This document shows, one piece after another, positions 11,176 through 37,573 of a DNA stretch of 64,000 nt. This DNA is from Natrinema halophilum (GTDB lineage: Archaea > Halobacteriota > Halobacteria > Halobacteriales > Natrialbaceae), in assembly GCF_013402815.2 (NCBI RefSeq), contig NZ_CP084880.1, positions 1 through 64,000 on the forward strand, in the 5' to 3' direction. Within the stretch, counting starts at the first letter, position 1, and the number at the start of each line of letters is the position of its first letter. The position numbers and the translations under genes are program-made. Below the pieces are notes generated by a model. The model did not search any database. It was not told the DNA's origin and saw only the letters and a program-made list of their open reading frames with translations.

Positions 11176-14100
11176 TCATCGCTGTCTCTTCTGGGGATCC
11201 ATAGGGTTCTCTCTTTCGGCACCTCCGACGATCCGTCGTTTCAAGACGTAGGCTACCCCACTGAGGGCTGCGAGCCCGGATCCGGCGCCAAAGCCTGGAA
11301 CTTCGTCGTCCAGATCGGGGGTCCTCTCGGAGGCATTCCTATCGCCGGTTTCGACATCGTCACCATCGTCGCTCGAGTCGGCGTCGGTAGCGTCGTCCAT
11401 CTCCGCCTCTCCGCCTTCGTTCGACCCGTCGTCCGAGAACGAGTCATCGGAGGAGTCGACCGAACTCCCGCCGTCAACGGCCTCCCAACTGTCTTCGGGA
11501 AGTACCACCCCGCCCTCTTCGAGCAGCGCGAATTGTTGCTCGTTGTGGGTTTCCTCGAGGTACGCGTTGCCCAGAACCACGGCCGTTCGATCCCGGAAGA
11601 GCATCCCCGGCGTTCCTGGGGAACGCTCCCCGTTCGCGACGATTTGGTAGATGTCTTCCTGGGGTGGCTGGTAGATGTCTTCCTGGGGAGGCTGGTAGAT
11701 GTCTTCCTGGGGTGGCGCCGTGTTGCTGGAGAAGAGCGTGTCACCCGAAAATAGCGTATCGCCTGGGAATAAGGTGTCGCTCGGGAACAGCGTCTTTCCT
11801 GGGAATAGGACGGTTCCATCCGCGAGGAGGGCCGCCTCGCTCTCGCTGAGTTCTCCGGATGGGTCCTCGAGGAAAGCCGCGATGCTCTCCTCGAGTGAAG
11901 CGAGCTGGTCATCGGCATCTCCCGTTCCTGGAGCTTCCTTAAAGAGAACCATCGATCGGTCTCTGATGTGAGCGTCGGCCGTTGCGGTGAGGAATCCGTT
12001 GTCTCCCGGTTCGAGGGCGACGACTAGACTGTTTTCGAGGAGAATCGCCGCTTCTGCCTCCGGAACGCCCTTATTGAGGGCCCCCTCAAGCATCGTGGTC
12101 GTGAGAAGTTCGAGATCCTCCCGAACGAGGGCGTCTCCTGGGAACAACTCGTCGCCGGGGAACCAGGTACCGCCCGGGAATAACGCATTGCTGGGGAACC
12201 AGGTACCGCCTGGGAACAACGTATCTCCTGGGAAAAGCGTATCACCGGAAAAGAAGACGAGTCCATCCGAGATGATCTCCTCGTACTCGGACAGGTCCCG
12301 TTTTCGTACCCACGTGGCGTCCTCGAGGAGCGTCGTGGCGTGTCCGAGCAGCGTCACGATTTCCGCTTCCGGAGCGGCCGTGGCGTCTCCACTCACCAGT
12401 GATCCGCCCTGAACGGCGACGACATCATCCCGAAGGAGAGCGTCTCCGGGGAACCAGGTTCCCCCGGGAAAGATTTCGTCATCGGAGAGAGCCGCCTCGA
12501 GTTCGGAGAGCCCCTGTTCCGCGAGGGTGTCGCCGGGGAAGAACACCGTCGCGTCGGGGAGCCATCGCCGTGCGAAGGACGTAAGGGCCCCGTCTCTTAC
12601 AATCGACTCGCCAGGGACGGCCACGCTGCCGTACTCGAGCGCTTCGTCGAGAATGTCATCGAAAGGAGTTTCAAAAAGCGCTTCGAATTCTGCGAATAGA
12701 ACGGTTTCGTCAGTCCCCACGTCGCGTACTGTTTCGTAAGACTCGTCAGCTACAGGGTACGGGGCGACGTCGAAACTCCCCTCTGGGAGATAGATGCCAC
12801 CCTCATCGAAGAGCGCGAGCCACGGGTATTCGAGTTCGTGGTACTCTTCGAGTTTCGCGTTTCCTCGTACGTACGACACTTCGGGTCGGATGAACGACGG
12901 TCCCGAGAACTCCGATCCGATGTCGTACAGCTCCGTCCCGTCCGACGAGACCAACTCCGATGTCGAGATCGCGTCCTCGAGTCCCGCAAGTCCGTGTGTC
13001 TCGAGCGTATCGCTCGGAAACAGAACTGCCGTGTCCGTACCCTGATCAGTCCACGGGACACGAACGAGATCTCGATTGTGGACCCAAGTACCGCCCGGAA
13101 ATGCCACCGACCGATTCTCGATGAGGCCGGTCGCACCAGCCGTCGGGGACGGGCCAAAGATCGTCTCTCCCGGGACCATCGTCGCGACCTCCTCGACCGC
13201 GATGTCTCGCGTCGTCCGGTACCGTTCGGCAGCGCTCTCGGATTCGTCGGCTTCTTCGTCTATCGAGCCGACAGCTGTCTCGGCCCACGCGTCATGGTGG
13301 CCGAGCGTTCCGAGCCGAACCCTCGAATCCTCGCTCGATCCTTCCCCATCCACGTCGATAGCGTAGAGGTAGCCGTCGTCACAGCCGACGTAGAGCACGC
13401 CATCGACGACCGTGGGTGAACTCCAGATCGGGTCGTCGAACGCGAATTCCCAGACTGGCTTCCCTGTGTCGGCATCGAGCCCTGAGACCGTTCCCTGAAT
13501 GTTCGCGACGTACACCCTCCCATCGGCCACCGTGGGCGCGGCGTGGAACTGCCAGTCAGTGTCGGTGTCGGCCGGCACTGCGACGCCGAATTCCCACAGT
13601 TTCTCGCCCGTAGCGGTGTCGACGGCGTACACCACTGCGTCGGTGGGGTCATCTGCGATGCCGAAGGTCGTATCGTCCGTCCCGACGTACACCACGCCGT
13701 CGTGAACCGTCGTCGCGGTAATAACATGTGCGACCGGTTCCGTGAATGCCCACTCGCGCGTTCCGTTCTCTGCATCTACGGCATACAGCGTCGAGTCATC
13801 GCTGCCCACGTACGCGGTCCCGTCGACCACCGTCACTTCAGAACTGATCCCCAGATCAGTCTCGAACTGCCACTCGAGGGCGCCTGTCTGGGCCTCAAGC
13901 GCATAGACATTTCCATCTCGGCTGCCAATATAAACGACGCCGTCGACGACAGTCGGTGCGTTCCTGATGCTGTCTCCAGTCGAATAACGCCACCGCTCAG
14001 TCCCATCGTCGGCATCGAGGGCGTACACGGTACCGTCTTCGCTGGCGACATAGACGGCGTCGGTCACGCGCGTCGGCGAGGAGTTGACATAGGAACCGGT

Positions 14101-14583
14101 CCGGAAACGCCATTGCTCTGTACCGTCCTCCGCGTCCAGCGCGTAGATGTGGTAGTCTGTACTACCGATGTATACCGTTCCGGCGACGACCTGGGCGTCG
14201 CTACGGATCTGGTTCCCTGTCCGATAGGACCAGCGTTCGCTTCCGTCTGTAGCGTCGATAGCGTATACGAAACCCCCCTTGTCGCCGACGTAAACAGTTC
14301 CGTCAACGATCGTCGGTGACGATTCCACGAAGCCGTCGGCCTCGAACCGCCAGCTCACATCACCAGACTGTGTCCCCTTTTGGGCGCTGGCAACTGTAGA
14401 GCTGGAACTAGAAATACCGACGAGTGAGGCACCACCGACAGCCTTCAGTATACATCTACGGCGAGGTTCATGACCGGATCCAGGACTGCCGGAAGGTGTG
14501 GCTTCGACGGACGTAGTGCTCGGACCGGAAGCGGATCGGTTGTTCTCCACGCGGTTTGTAGATTCGTTTTGCCGACTGTTCAT
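11176..14583 (-). CDS. Exported PQQ-like beta-propeller with FPGD repeats and PGF-CTERM
   Basis: An 1135-aa exported protein. Residues 41-70 form a Tat signal (RRRCILK followed by a hydrophobic Ala/Ser stretch). Residues about 75-430 hold eight YAxDA-type blades of a PQQ/Trp-docking propeller. Residues about 440-960 contain long segments with recurrent PG[DEG]T[LW]F motifs. These condense into hexapeptide runs such as FPGDTLFPGGTW at about 778-821 and SDTLFPGDTLFSGDTLF at about 924-955. PPQEDIYQ then occurs three times in tandem. An acidic linker and a PGF-CTERM anchor (VPGFGAGSGLAALSG, then a basic tail) end the protein. It should be lipid-anchored on the cell surface after archaeosortase processing. 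Function of the hexapeptide part is unknown; a paralogue lies at 34900-37032. Confidence 0.85.
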   Translation of the reverse strand: MNSRQNESTNRVENNRSASGPSTTSVEATPSGSPGSGHEPRRRCILKAVGGASLVGISSSSSTVASAQKGTQSGDVSWRFEADGFVESSPTIVDGTVYVGDKGGFVYAIDATDGSERWSYRTGNQIRSDAQVVAGTVYIGSTDYHIYALDAEDGTEQWRFRTGSYVNSSPTRVTDAVYVASEDGTVYALDADDGTERWRYSTGDSIRNAPTVVDGVVYIGSRDGNVYALEAQTGALEWQFETDLGISSEVTVVDGTAYVGSDDSTLYAVDAENGTREWAFTEPVAHVITATTVHDGVVYVGTDDTTFGIADDPTDAVVYAVDTATGEKLWEFGVAVPADTDTDWQFHAAPTVADGRVYVANIQGTVSGLDADTGKPVWEFAFDDPIWSSPTVVDGVLYVGCDDGYLYAIDVDGEGSSEDSRVRLGTLGHHDAWAETAVGSIDEEADESESAAERYRTTRDIAVEEVATMVPGETIFGPSPTAGATGLIENRSVAFPGGTWVHNRDLVRVPWTDQGTDTAVLFPSDTLETHGLAGLEDAISTSELVSSDGTELYDIGSEFSGPSFIRPEVSYVRGNAKLEEYHELEYPWLALFDEGGIYLPEGSFDVAPYPVADESYETVRDVGTDETVLFAEFEALFETPFDDILDEALEYGSVAVPGESIVRDGALTSFARRWLPDATVFFPGDTLAEQGLSELEAALSDDEIFPGGTWFPGDALLRDDVVAVQGGSLVSGDATAAPEAEIVTLLGHATTLLEDATWVRKRDLSEYEEIISDGLVFFSGDTLFPGDTLFPGGTWFPSNALFPGGTWFPGDELFPGDALVREDLELLTTTMLEGALNKGVPEAEAAILLENSLVVALEPGDNGFLTATADAHIRDRSMVLFKEAPGTGDADDQLASLEESIAAFLEDPSGELSESEAALLADGTVLFPGKTLFPSDTLFPGDTLFSGDTLFSSNTAPPQEDIYQPPQEDIYQPPQEDIYQIVANGERSPGTPGMLFRDRTAVVLGNAYLEETHNEQQFALLEEGGVVLPEDSWEAVDGGSSVDSSDDSFSDDGSNEGGEAEMDDATDADSSDDGDDVETGDRNASERTPDLDDEVPGFGAGSGLAALSGVAYVLKRRIVGGAERENPMDPQKRQR
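11645..11716 (-). repeat. 24-bp tandem repeat, three copies
   Basis: Three near-identical 24-bp units encode PPQEDIYQ three times in the FPGD-repeat protein. The near identity at DNA level implies recent slippage or recombination. Confidence 0.7.
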
Positions 14584-32699: not shown

Positions 32700-33025
32700 T
32701 GATTTGGTGGGAGAGGACGCTCGAAAGCCCTCGGCCGCTCGACGTCCCGCGACCGCGCGAGACGGAGTCTCGCTGGCCCTCGTTCGCTTCGCTCACGAGG
32801 ACGCCGCTACGCGCCTCGTCCCTGCGGTGCTTGCGGGGTCGGGGGACGGCCGAGTCGGCCTCGCCCTTTCTGAGTCCGCCAGGACAGTGGAAGGCCCACC
32901 GAGCGACGTAGCCGGCTGAACAGGTGCGTACGTGACGGCCCGCCCCGCTCGCCGCTGCCGCCCTCCGCGTCGCTCGCGACCGACCATTCCGGGCGGTCTG
33001 CCTGCAGTAGCGGGCGGACTGCCGG
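32700..33025. repeat. GC-rich hairpin-dense non-coding region
   Basis: About 320 bp of GC-rich DNA with short inverted repeats, e.g. GCGAGACGGAGTCTCGC near 32758. The block at 32939-32995 (GGCCCGCCCCGCTCGCCGC, then CGACCGACCATTCCGGGCG) is nearly identical to one at 37483-37539, upstream of the RPA-like gene. Open frames across it are side effects of GC content. Confidence 0.5.
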
Positions 33026-33153
33026 GCTAAAGTGAATCTGGTCTCGATGCCAGCGGGTATCCCCGTCGGTTGCGCCCCTCGCGGGCCTAACACGAGCGGG
33101 CATATCGGTATCGGCACACCTCTGCACTGACTACGTCGCCGGTGGTTCTTTTT

Positions 33154-33176
33154 GCGCCTGCAATGGGTGCAGGCGC
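33154..33176 (+). promoter_or_regulatory. T-run plus hairpin leader element (copy B)
   Basis: A T-run at 33148-33153 precedes GCGCCTGC (33154-33161), loop AATGGGT and GCAGGCGC (33169-33176), a perfect 8-bp stem. Same design as the elements at 50237 and 52027 but with different, compensating stem bases. Confidence 0.5.
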
Positions 33177-33328
33177 GAAGCGATCGTGCCTGCATGGTAA
33201 TACAGGCGACTTCTGATGGAACAACGCCACCAGCGACAGGTGTATCGTCAATCAGCGGGGGACTGGCCGGATGTCCGTTGACCTTGACGAGATTGAGCAG
33301 GCCGAAGACGGTCGCCTCTGCCCGGTCG

Positions 33329-33640
33329 GTTCCCGTTGACCTGTCGCTCCAGCTGGAACTGTGTCCGGAACGGTTCACCGAACAGTACAAAGCATTTCCA
33401 CGGTCACGAACTGCGGTCAACAGACGAGTGAACGAGGCTGCCGAGACCGCAGACATTGATGGGCGAGTGTATCCCCATTGTCTCCGGGCGACTGCTGCCA
33501 GCTACCACGCCTATCAAGGAGTCGCACCCGTTCCGCTCCAAGCGCTGATGGGGTGGAGCGACCTGGCGACAGCTCAAAGATACATCCGCATCTCCGGGAG
33601 AGCCACTGCTGACGCTCTTCGGCAAGTCCATCGCCGGTGA
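33329..33640 (+). pseudogene. Tyrosine recombinase (integrase) C-terminal fragment
   Basis: The last 103 codons of a phage/XerD-type integrase. Conserved pieces are YPHCLRATAASYHAYQG (HxxR box) and LMGWSDLATAQRYIRISGRA with the catalytic Tyr. The N-terminal domains and the first catalytic Arg are absent. The upstream frame is unrelated. It marks a former integration locus; no attachment site duplication could be identified by eye. Confidence 0.65.
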
Positions 33641-33930: not shown

Positions 33931-34428
33931 TCACTCGCAGCCAGCACTCTGGTACCAAGAAACTTCGAGCCGCCACCTGTTTCCACCCTTCGTCAAATTT
34001 CTACTGAGAGCCCGTACCACGTATCGACCACCGGTTTCCGTCGTGATATCGTAAAGGTTCGACGAATCCCGGCCCTCGAGGACGACCTCGCCGTCCGGGT
34101 CGACGATCTCGATAGCTGGGAATCCACCCTTGGTTCTCGAGCGAGGCTCAGTACTGTAGATGTTGACGTTGAGTCTCCTGTCTGCGTCCATATCGATGTG
34201 CCACTCGACACTCGAGTGGCCGACGACACGAGAGGTCAGTTTCCCCGAGAGCCTGAACGTGTCTTCGAAGAGCTCTGCCTCCTGACAGTCGTAGTCGAAT
34301 TCGGTCGTCGCTGGATCAACCGTGTACTCGCCCCTGACCTCACCTCCGTCCCGGTCTGCGGAGAGACAGCCAGCAAGAAATCCGGCCCCGCCTGTTGCGA
34401 TGCCACCGATGAATGCTCGGCGTTGCAT
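33931..34428 (-). CDS. Tat-type lipoprotein of unknown function
   Basis: A 165-aa protein starting MQRRAFIGGIATGGAGFLAG followed by the lipobox Cys. The mature part has beta-strand-rich segments (SVEWHIDMDADRRLNVNIYS, IEIVDPDGEVVLEG, then GGRYVVRALSRN), the pattern of a small beta-sandwich. It should sit on the outer membrane face. No family assigned. Confidence 0.75.
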   Translation of the reverse strand: MQRRAFIGGIATGGAGFLAGCLSADRDGGEVRGEYTVDPATTEFDYDCQEAELFEDTFRLSGKLTSRVVGHSSVEWHIDMDADRRLNVNIYSTEPRSRTKGGFPAIEIVDPDGEVVLEGRDSSNLYDITTETGGRYVVRALSRNLTKGGNRWRLEVSWYQSAGCE

Positions 34429-34508: not shown

Positions 34509-34787
34509 CTAGACGATGGTTAATTCTCTATTACTGGCGAACGAGAGGTCACCGAACACGCCGGTCACGGCGACGTCGTGGCTTCCCCGAGAGAACTCCT
34601 CGACGACATCCCGAGTCCGGAATGTCAACCGGACCGTGGTCCTTCCACCGGATTCGATGATCGGAGTCCGGACGAACTCGTGTTCTCCCTCGTGGACCGC
34701 TCGAACCGAACCGAGCGTCGCGGTTTCGAGTTCGACGACTTCCGCGGAGATTTCCCGGTCGAACGAGATGTCTGCGTGGACGAACAC
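34509..34787 (-). CDS. Beta-sandwich-like protein or fragment
   Basis: 92 codons from a GTG: VELETATLGSVRAVHEGEHE, GRTTVRLTFRTRDVVEEF and HDVAVTGVFGDLSFASN. The pattern is an Ig-like domain as in C-termini of surface proteins, and there is no signal peptide. It may be the remaining end of a longer protein. Confidence 0.45.
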   Translation of the reverse strand: MFVHADISFDREISAEVVELETATLGSVRAVHEGEHEFVRTPIIESGGRTTVRLTFRTRDVVEEFSRGSHDVAVTGVFGDLSFASNRELTIV

Positions 34788-34899: not shown

Positions 34900-37032
34900 T
34901 CAACTCCGGTCGACGTAGTGCTGGGGATATACATAGTCGAATTCACACATTTGATCGGGCACGCTGTAGTTCGTATACCAGGCGCTTTTTGCTTTTTCCT
35001 CCAGTTCATCGGACTTGTCACCATCAGCATATTCTACCGCCCGGAGCGCCCAATCAAGACAGTTATACCGCAACCGCCAGTTTCTGTCTTTGTTCTCGAG
35101 GTCATACTCTACGTTACCCACGAACTGCTCGTACGTGGTCGGCTGTTCCAGTTTCCCCGAAGAACAGTCGTCCGTCGCCCATGCAGGGACTTCACACTGT
35201 ATCTTGTTGTCGCTGTCGTCTCTGAAGTCGGTATCCCCGTACCAACCCCATGATTCCGAGTGGATCTGTGGGGGAAGAATGTCGTGTTCGATTCCTTCAC
35301 AATCTGGCCCCGTAAACGTGTAAAAGTGTTTCTTGGCCGTATGTCTCATCCACGCGTGTCCAAATCCGTTGTACCAGCCACCGTACCCGATGACGATCGT
35401 AATTTGGGCTTGTGAGCATCTGAACTCTGGCGGTGGACAGTCAGTGTCCTCCGTCTCTGTCGATGAGTCGGACAGTGCCGTCCCCACGTCTTTGACGACA
35501 TCTTCGAAGCCTGCGTGGACCTCCTGGTGGGAGTGCTTGAGGGGTGTCAGCTCGTGGACGATCCCCCAGACAGCCGTCGCAAGTGGCAGGGGTTTGTCGG
35601 CGAATCGTGGATGGAGTGGCACGGATTGGTCGTGGCCCTCCCGGCCGGCATAGAGGTTGACGTTTTGCTCGATGTGGCGCCTGAGGTCGTCGGCTGCCTC
35701 GGCGACTGCCTCTCGTCGGCGGTCCGATTTGTCCCGTAACGTCTCGAATCGTTCGACGTGACGCGTCCACCCCGCGACGGTTTCAGGTGGGACCGGGAGG
35801 GCTGCGTCCTCTGGGTCCTCGATATCTGGCGCGGTGGCCGAAAAGATCGCCTTTCGATCGAATCCGTCGGGGAGCGGGGCATCGCGAAAGCGGTCCAGTT
35901 CGTCCGCCAGCCACACGCCGTAGAGCATGGCCTCGAGGTCGGACCGTGCGGTTGCGAACTCGCTGTTTATCTCCCCGGCTGCCGTGAGTGTCTCGCCCAG
36001 AGTTTCCTGGAGGGTGAGGAATTCCTCGATCGCGTCGGAGCCGTCGGCCGCCTCCCAGCTACCTGCAGGGAGCAAGACACCGCCGATGTCCAGGAGTCTG
36101 ACCCAGCGGTCATCGAGGTCGTCGTGATGCTCGACGAGCGTCGAACTTCCTGGCATGTACGCCATATTCGCCCGGAAGAGTGCATCACCGGGGAACCACG
36201 TATCTCCCGGGAAGAGTGCATCACCGGGGAACCACGTATCTCCCGGGAAGAGTGTATCACCGGGGAACCACGTATCTCCCGGGAAGAGTGTATCACCGGG
36301 GAAGAGTGCATCGCCGGGAAAAAACGAGTCCCCTGGGAAGAAGACGGCAGCAGAGCTCAGTAGGTCGGACTCCGCTGGTTCGGCTAGATCCCACATATCC
36401 CCAGGGAACAGCGCGCCACTGGCCTCCAGGAATCCTGCGACCTCTGCTTCCGGAACACCATCGTCCAGTGTCTCCGTGAGCGCCGAGCCTTCGACCGCAC
36501 GCACGTTCTCTCGGACGAGTGCGTCGCCGGGGAACCACGTGTCGCCGGGGAACGCAAGTCCCTCCCAGGGGTTCGGCTCTCGTTCTTCCTCTCCCGGAGT
36601 CGTTTCCCTGCTCGGAAGCGCCTCCAGCAGGTTTGAGAAGTCGCTTTCGTCCAACGTATCCCCCGGAAACAGGACGGTCGCCCCATTCAGGTCGAGCGAT
36701 CCGGGCTGTATTACAGATTCGCCGTCGACGAAGGCGTCCGCGCCGAAGGCGACCTGCCCCCCAGCGAGGACCTTCGAGCTGATATCCTGATAGTCGGATT
36801 CAATCAGCGGTGCACCTGGGACGACGGTCACAGCCTCTTCAGCCTTGATATCTCGCGTTATTCGATACCCGGTGTGATCGTCGTCCCCATTCGCGCTACC
36901 AGTCGTCCCGGGATCGTCGGTATCGTCGTCTCCCTCAGAGTCATCCCCCTGCATCCCGTTATCATTCGTTTCCCCACACCCCGCAACTGTGGTCGCTATC
37001 ATCGCGGCAAGCACCTGTCTTCGTCGTATCAT
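34900..37032 (-). CDS. FPGD-hexapeptide lipoprotein with possible permuted papain-like domain
   Basis: A 710-aa protein from ATG 37032 (a start 15 bp upstream is possible). MIRRRQVLAAMIATTVAGC is a Tat lipoprotein signal; an acidic linker follows. Residues 55-230 resemble the paralogue at 11176-14583 (YRITRDIKAEEAVTVVPGA, DGVPEAEV). Residues 231-286 are nine near-perfect hexapeptides of the type [TA][LW]FPGD, ended by LLPAGSWEAADG, which has a counterpart in the paralogue. Residues 320-540 are helical. The C-terminal 150 residues contain FGHAWMRH (His559) and YNCLDWALRAVEYAD (Cys658), a His-then-Cys order like permuted NlpC/P60 or LRAT folds. Catalysis is inferred only. Confidence 0.75.
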   Translation of the reverse strand: MIRRRQVLAAMIATTVAGCGETNDNGMQGDDSEGDDDTDDPGTTGSANGDDDHTGYRITRDIKAEEAVTVVPGAPLIESDYQDISSKVLAGGQVAFGADAFVDGESVIQPGSLDLNGATVLFPGDTLDESDFSNLLEALPSRETTPGEEEREPNPWEGLAFPGDTWFPGDALVRENVRAVEGSALTETLDDGVPEAEVAGFLEASGALFPGDMWDLAEPAESDLLSSAAVFFPGDSFFPGDALFPGDTLFPGDTWFPGDTLFPGDTWFPGDALFPGDTWFPGDALFRANMAYMPGSSTLVEHHDDLDDRWVRLLDIGGVLLPAGSWEAADGSDAIEEFLTLQETLGETLTAAGEINSEFATARSDLEAMLYGVWLADELDRFRDAPLPDGFDRKAIFSATAPDIEDPEDAALPVPPETVAGWTRHVERFETLRDKSDRRREAVAEAADDLRRHIEQNVNLYAGREGHDQSVPLHPRFADKPLPLATAVWGIVHELTPLKHSHQEVHAGFEDVVKDVGTALSDSSTETEDTDCPPPEFRCSQAQITIVIGYGGWYNGFGHAWMRHTAKKHFYTFTGPDCEGIEHDILPPQIHSESWGWYGDTDFRDDSDNKIQCEVPAWATDDCSSGKLEQPTTYEQFVGNVEYDLENKDRNWRLRYNCLDWALRAVEYADGDKSDELEEKAKSAWYTNYSVPDQMCEFDYVYPQHYVDRS
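36178..36330 (-). repeat. 36-bp tandem repeat within the FPGD gene
   Basis: About four copies of a 36-bp unit (two hexapeptides, FPGDALFPGDTW). Units differ by one or two bases only. This is coding DNA, not a CRISPR array: there are no unique spacers. Confidence 0.8.
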
Positions 37033-37470
37033 GAATTTTATAATCACTTATGTTATATATACTTAGGGGAGAAATACAATGTGTGGCTAACCGGCTCTAG
37101 AGGGGTACTCGAGGTGAAGACAAACTCAGTCTCTCGATTATGGTCGGGCCGATCCGGTAATATCTCTCGACGGGTCGCGGATACGAGCAGGTGAACCTGC
37201 CGGGACTTGCTCAGGCCCTATTGGCGAAGAACACGATGATACATACTGTATTCGGACCTTAGTTTTGCAGGACTTCATGAGTAAATATCGTATTTAGTAG
37301 CATTCCCACATGAAGTGAGCGGGCTGGTCATCGGGTTCGGCGTGAAATAAACGAAGTCGTCATGCTGAACTCACCCTCTGTATGCAGCAGGCCTGTTCTC
37401 TCAAATTATAGGAATTACAGCACAAGATCGAGGTTCGGTAAGCAGGCGCACTGACACCTCCTATTTTGGT
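37033..37470. other. Intergenic region
   Basis: About 440 bp with no supported gene; contains the upstream region of the FPGD lipoprotein gene (AT-rich at 37033-37080). Confidence 0.35.
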
Positions 37471-37482
37471 GTTTCTCTCCGG

Positions 37483-37539
37483 CCCGCCCCGCTCGCCGCA
37501 TTCCGCCCTCCGCGTCACTCGCGACCGACCATTCCGGGC
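37483..37539. repeat. Second copy of the GC-rich non-coding block
   Basis: Near-identical to 32939-32995: GGCCCGCCCCGCTCGCCGC, CCGCCCTCCGCGTC, then CGACCGACCATTCCGGGCG. Here it lies 190-250 bp before an RPA-like gene, whereas the first copy has no such gene behind it. Confidence 0.6.
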
Positions 37540-37573
37540 GTGCGGGCGGTGCTGGTTGGGTGACCTTCCTTTG

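Follow-up and report, generated by a model that had tools for sequence, protein, structure and literature searches.

A haloarchaeal FPGD-repeat lipoprotein with an exchanged cysteine-rich tail, possibly a divergent permuted papain-like surface enzyme

Introduction

Does the C-terminal tail of a predicted surface lipoprotein of Natrinema halophilum hold a thiol enzyme? The question arises near the start of contig NZ_CP084880.1, of which we analyzed the first 64,000 nucleotides (the window). The first-pass annotation had described a lipoprotein with FPGD repeats in which a His in FGHAWMRH is followed by a Cys in YNCLDWAL, and had proposed a permuted papain-like peptidase or acyltransferase. In papain-like enzymes the nucleophilic Cys sits at the start of a helix (PMC10318531), and in permuted NlpC/P60 enzymes a His, a polar residue and a Tyr stand ahead of a late Cys (PMC3142127). 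Among the known permuted members are LRAT, YiiX, the lipoprotein N-acyltransferase DUF4105/Lnb and the phospholipase effector Tox-Act1 (PMC12994826).

Results

Gene, start codon and replicon

Both motifs lie in one open frame on the minus strand (34900-37047), and the claimed fusion of FPGD repeats to the His/Cys tail is borne out. Opened mechanically at the GTG at 37047, the frame has 715 codons. Translation almost certainly begins instead at the ATG at 37032, because this ATG aligns with the start of a relative in locus L046 (MIRRRQVLAA against MLKRRELLAV) and because a TATA-like box, TATATATAA (37053..37061, minus), lies about 25 nt upstream of it. This box is likely the gene's own promoter, with a leaderless transcript. 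The lipoprotein gene thus spans 34900..37032 (minus) and encodes 710 aa. Residue numbers in the following count from the GTG, so that His564 and Cys663 equal His559 and Cys658 from the ATG. The contig has 425,401 bases in a genome of 4.84 Mb and three contigs, and is likely a megaplasmid, a location that fits an accessory function.

Export signal and FPGD stalk

The protein begins with a Tat-type lipoprotein signal, MIRRRQVLAAMIATTVAGC (36976..37032, minus). In haloarchaeal Tat lipoproteins, the lipobox Cys follows the twin Arg 12-21 residues on (PMC2945643). Here, 13-14 residues separate the twin Arg of RRRQVL from the Cys of VAGC (Cys24; 36976-36978, minus), and this spacing upholds the earlier claim of Tat lipoprotein export.

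Signal and repeats form a module (36013..37032, minus) common to other haloarchaeal proteins, and relatives of residues 6-345 were found in 12 of 391 genomes of the class, the own genome included. The best FPGD relative is L046 (424-2457, minus), with 48-51% identity over the lipoprotein/FPGD half. The linker that follows (residues 346-530; 35458..36012, minus) is acidic, free of Cys and, judged from its sequence, probably helical, and no relative of it was found. As a separate observation, the FPGD array at 36171-36332 is at the DNA level a repeat of 18 nt that keeps in step with the reading frame, and the opposite strand is open across it, reading as SPGK/SPGN repeats.

Exchangeable C-terminal modules

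At the place of the cysteine-rich domain, L046 has a right-handed beta-helix. This is direct evidence of tail exchange, and the cysteine-rich tail is therefore a swapped-in module. Most other haloarchaeal lipoproteins with FPGD or PGS repeats have a C-terminal domain in common (L002, L003, L010, L047, L048 and L050), which is DUF6517 according to Pfam in L003, L010 and L047 and by eye in L002, L048 and L050. Their repeat drifts between FPGD, IPGS, VPGN and YPGS. In the window itself, a paralogue (11176-14583, minus) joins FPGD repeats to a PQQ-type beta-propeller. Since the FPGD part is found with a beta-helix, DUF6517, a PQQ propeller or the cysteine-rich tail, it acts like a carrier whose modules can be exchanged. 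The lipoprotein thus shares the signal peptide and the repeat module with the DUF6517- and beta-helix-tailed FPGD lipoproteins of haloarchaea, but its own tail occurs in none of them. The paralogue ends in an acidic stretch and a hydrophobic segment, the latter with the typical look of a putative surface anchor.

Composition and coding status of the tail

The tail (residues 531-715; 34903..35457, minus) is acidic and has a GC content of 52%, compared with 62-64% for the rest. It holds seven of the eight Cys of the protein (537, 544, 583, 618, 628, 663 and 701), the only other one being the lipobox Cys, beside six His in 185 residues. The other ORFs sampled in the window have 0-1.8% Cys. The tail is real, salt-adapted coding sequence, because frame 0 is the only frame that is stop-free and the only acidic one (pI 4.4, 19% D+E) and because GC1/2/3 is coding-like (0.54/0.41/0.62). 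Judged from its composition, it was probably acquired from elsewhere. Seven Cys outside the cell suggest disulfides, and from the odd number at least one Cys would be unpaired.

Position and spacing of His and Cys

His564 of FGHAWMRH (35356-35358, minus) is the candidate general base and Cys663 of YNCLDWAL (35059-35061, minus) the candidate nucleophile. Both residues are exactly where the first-pass annotation had placed them when counted from the ATG, and its spacing of about 100 residues proved to be 99. This spacing compares with 97-104 in 18 DUF4105 proteins and 108 in Tox-Act1 (H43/C151; PMC12994826). The His-before-Cys order alone is uninformative, because a His with a Cys 80-120 residues on was present in 18,582 of 20,000 shuffles of the tail (93%). 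The fuller pattern of FGH...R followed by NC arose in 2 of 20,000 tail shuffles, a figure that overstates the evidence as the pattern was chosen after seeing the sequence. Among about 1,800 real ORFs examined, it was present only in the FPGD lipoprotein and in DUF4105 members. By the residue spacing of PMC3142127, His574 (35326..35328, minus), 10 residues after His564 on the next possible strand, and Tyr648 (35104..35106, minus), 15 before Cys663, are candidates for the third and fourth catalytic residues. Together with His564 and Cys663, they could fill the catalytic roles of a permuted NlpC/P60 enzyme.

Comparison with permuted papain-like families

For DUF4105/Lnb_N we collected 20 domains, 18 of them with the FGH motif, and built an HMM. 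On the tail it scored 4.6 bits, and 1 of 1001 decoys did at least as well. The alignment is confined to FGH...R and the strand that leads up to the His, with ITIVIGYGGWYNGFGHAWMR over LT..pG..lYs.FGHsalR, and the tail thus contains the FGHxxxR catalytic His segment of the family. A PSSM of the 12-residue DUF4105 His segment gave the tail a score reached by 1 of 3000 shuffles and, among about 1480 ORFs outside DUF4105 loci, by two that lie on one contig. Using hhalign, the tail against DUF4105 gave P = 0.036 and a probability of about 1 of 100, and 1 of 100 shuffles scored as high. The Cys segment, RNWRLRYNCLDWA, scored -5.7 bits when set in register against YRYDFxxDNC[AST]T of DUF4105, where N, C and two residues beside them were the only ones positive to any extent. 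We therefore dropped the whole FGH...NC pair as a DUF4105 fit, since the Cys half fails in the correct register. The Pfam models of DUF4105/Lnb_N (PF13387) and PPPDE (PF05903) had no match in the tail up to E = 10.

The other families came no closer. The hhalign score of the tail against LRAT (PF04970), compared with one member only, was reached by 71 of 100 shuffles, and NCLDW stands where LRAT has its NCEHF nucleophile box. With one or two members compared in each case, 97 of 100 shuffles scored as high against Peptidase_C92 (PF05708) and 13 of 100 against NlpC/P60 (PF00877); the Cys-before-His order of the latter is reversed in the tail. The GD motif that marks strand 1 in the superfamily and contacts an Arg on strand 5 is absent before the His, where the tail reads ITIVIGYGGW, and it is also absent from the DUF4105 members inspected. 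Additionally, Peptidase_C92 was absent from the 59 haloarchaeal genomes searched, and LRAT had no match in the own genome. The proposed profile comparison thus gave a divided answer: DUF4105/Lnb_N resembles the His segment, but the Cys segment beyond N-C finds no counterpart, nor does the tail resemble LRAT, Peptidase_C92 or NlpC/P60. On present sequence comparison, we do not file the tail under any of these four families, because it fails their Pfam models and the Cys box of DUF4105.

With the Bacteroides DUF4105/Lnb_N lipoprotein N-acyltransferase the tail shares the envelope location, the Y..FGHxxxR of the first catalytic strand and an NC that follows after about 99 residues. In contrast to that family, the tail lacks the NYGxFDF and PENRxYRYDF motifs and matches the Cys region at NC only, and the protein is Cys-rich, archaeal, fused to an FPGD lipoprotein and not caught by the Pfam model. 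The permuted NlpC/P60 effectors Tox-Act1/TseH (DUF6695), compared by description, share the His-before-Cys order and a similar spacing (PMC12994826), whereas the tail has no Pfam match to DUF6695 and no secretion-system context was seen. LRAT/PLAAT proteins share the order and NC at the nucleophile, yet the hhalign comparison was no better than shuffles. The YaeF/YiiX proteins of Peptidase_C92 share the permuted order, but the tail has no profile similarity to them.

Searches for relatives

No match to the tail was found in Pfam, NCBIfam, PHROGs, PADLOC or the PDB sequences, nor was any Rfam match found. No relative turned up in viral contigs, GTDB contigs, plasmids or phages, in 125 genomes of the own family or in 391 of the class, and about 345 genomes of one bacterial phylum gave chance matches only. 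Linker and tail together (residues 346-715) had no relative in any set searched. Because the locus searches depend on short peptide patterns matched exactly, they reach close relatives only. Weak class-wide tblastn matches to the tail were inspected singly and judged to be chance. A scan for GHxW, 88-98 aa and NCxDW gave six matches in viral contigs, none of them an open in-frame homologue, and 34 in GTDB contigs, two of them open in frame. These two are coincidental, coming from two related genomes in which the motifs straddle the start of an unrelated protein. Relatives of DUF4105 were not found in the viral contigs.

Predicted structure

Two single-sequence AlphaFold runs gave pLDDT values of 35.3 and 33.8, at which no His-Cys distance is trustworthy. 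In both low-confidence models, a helix begins at about C663; the permuted superfamily places its Cys at the N-terminus of the core helix, with the His on a neighbouring strand.

Discussion

Is the tail an enzyme?

Our best explanation, held tentatively and at somewhat under an even chance, sees in the last ~170 residues a circularly permuted papain-like thiol enzyme of the NlpC/P60-superfamily type, strongly diverged and displayed on the cell surface. We favor it because of the HMM and PSSM scores of the His segment, the 99-residue spacing and the NC context, and also because of the helix beside C663 in the low-confidence models, the odd Cys count, the module swap and the likely megaplasmid location. 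It is weakened by the lack of a meaningful profile match, the negative results with LRAT, C92 and NlpC, the -5.7 bits of the Cys half, the missing GD motif, the failure of the searches to find homologues in which His and Cys might be conserved, and the low pLDDT of the models. For the permuted papain-like identity first proposed, the residues, their order, the spacing and the His segment stood up, but a profile match to any family did not appear. That the tail works like a permuted papain-like enzyme is plausible but unproven.

The main rival is a disulfide-rich, non-catalytic extracellular domain on the lipoprotein stalk, serving binding, adhesion or matrix contact, in which the GH and NC contexts would be coincidental and C663 would lie inside a disulfide. 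The concentration of seven Cys in 185 residues, in a protein with otherwise only its lipobox Cys and a window of Cys-poor sampled ORFs, would follow naturally from such a domain. The sister FPGD partners also look non-enzymatic (the beta-helix of L046, the PQQ propeller and DUF6517), and no enzyme profile matches the tail. However, with an odd number of Cys not all can be paired, the likeness of the His segment to DUF4105 stands above shuffles, and the spacing coincides as well. We regard this as a serious possibility that is nevertheless probably not the case. The absence of relatives from all searches would also suit a domain with an unrelated fold, be it truly an enzyme or a binding domain, that goes unrecognised for want of known relatives. 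Nothing speaks directly against such a domain, but it leaves the FGH segment and the spacing unexplained, and we think it unlikely.

Two further readings have little weight. The seven Cys and six His might ligate a metal of the zinc or iron-sulphur type rather than form a catalytic dyad, yet no spacing of the CxxC or HxxxH type is visible in the tail, and extracellular metal sites built on exposed cysteines are unusual, which makes this very unlikely. A recent fusion or a decaying stretch without function would account for a tail found in a single genome, with GC below the rest of the gene and an integrase fragment nearby. Against this, no frame other than frame 0 is open and acidic, and its GC1/2/3 is coding-like; we consider decay highly improbable.

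A possible mechanism

The sequence shows the export signal, the architecture, the two residues with their order and spacing, and the module swap. For the permuted papain-like enzyme, we infer fold, catalysis, disulfides and substrate as follows. The enzyme domain would have been gained by a tail swap on an FPGD lipoprotein, which Tat would export and whose lipid anchor would hold the enzyme outside the cell. Two His residues, His564 where one strand of a beta-hairpin begins and His574 on the strand after it, would activate Cys663, which would lie at the N-terminus of the core helix. This Cys would then attack an acyl or amide carbonyl to give a thioester intermediate, which could be resolved by water, as in a hydrolase, or by another nucleophile, as in an acyltransferase. 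The remaining six Cys of the tail may form three stabilising disulfides. Candidate substrates are lipoproteins, bonds in proteins or peptides and, on neighbouring cells, the lipids or the envelope.

Archaeal phospholipids are ether-linked (PMC9385802). We expect the same linkage, with no acyl ester on offer, in the phospholipids of the host itself. An enzyme that targets acyl groups would therefore have to find its substrate in a lipoprotein, a protein or another cell. A more specific version, in which a surface-tethered archaeal enzyme from the DUF4105/Tox-Act1 side targets acyl or amide groups of lipoproteins or neighbouring bacteria and is exchanged as a cassette on FPGD stalks, is speculative and has a low probability.

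If the enzyme reading is true, the tail represents an unrecognised thiol enzyme on the haloarchaeal outside. The nearest of its described relatives work on acyl groups, which archaeal membranes lack, and this would turn attention to a lipoprotein or a competitor as substrate. Haloarchaea are known for secreted antibacterial enzymes whose catalytic domains have been swapped (PMC12352652), and FPGD lipoproteins would be display stalks with exchangeable tails, comparable to the catalytic-domain swapping of archaeal peptidoglycan hydrolases (PMC12352652). If the tail is only a disulfide-rich binding domain, the observation of a modular stalk still holds.

Genomic neighbourhood

Downstream of the FPGD gene and on the same strand lies an ORF for a small lipoprotein (33931-34428, minus; 165 aa, 1.8% Cys), which is a possible partner of the FPGD protein. 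Neither this ORF nor the fragment at 34509-34787, both candidates for a partner or immunity role, belongs to a Pfam family. Just downstream of the locus, a short ORF (33152-33640, plus) matches a phage-type integrase over the latter's C-terminal half (Pfam E 5.8e-9) and is apparently a remnant. Two GC-rich direct repeats of nearly the same sequence (20 and 38 nt, 97-100%) at 32936-32995 and 37480-37540 are about 4.5 kb apart and bracket the lipoprotein gene; they could be the edges of an inserted segment.
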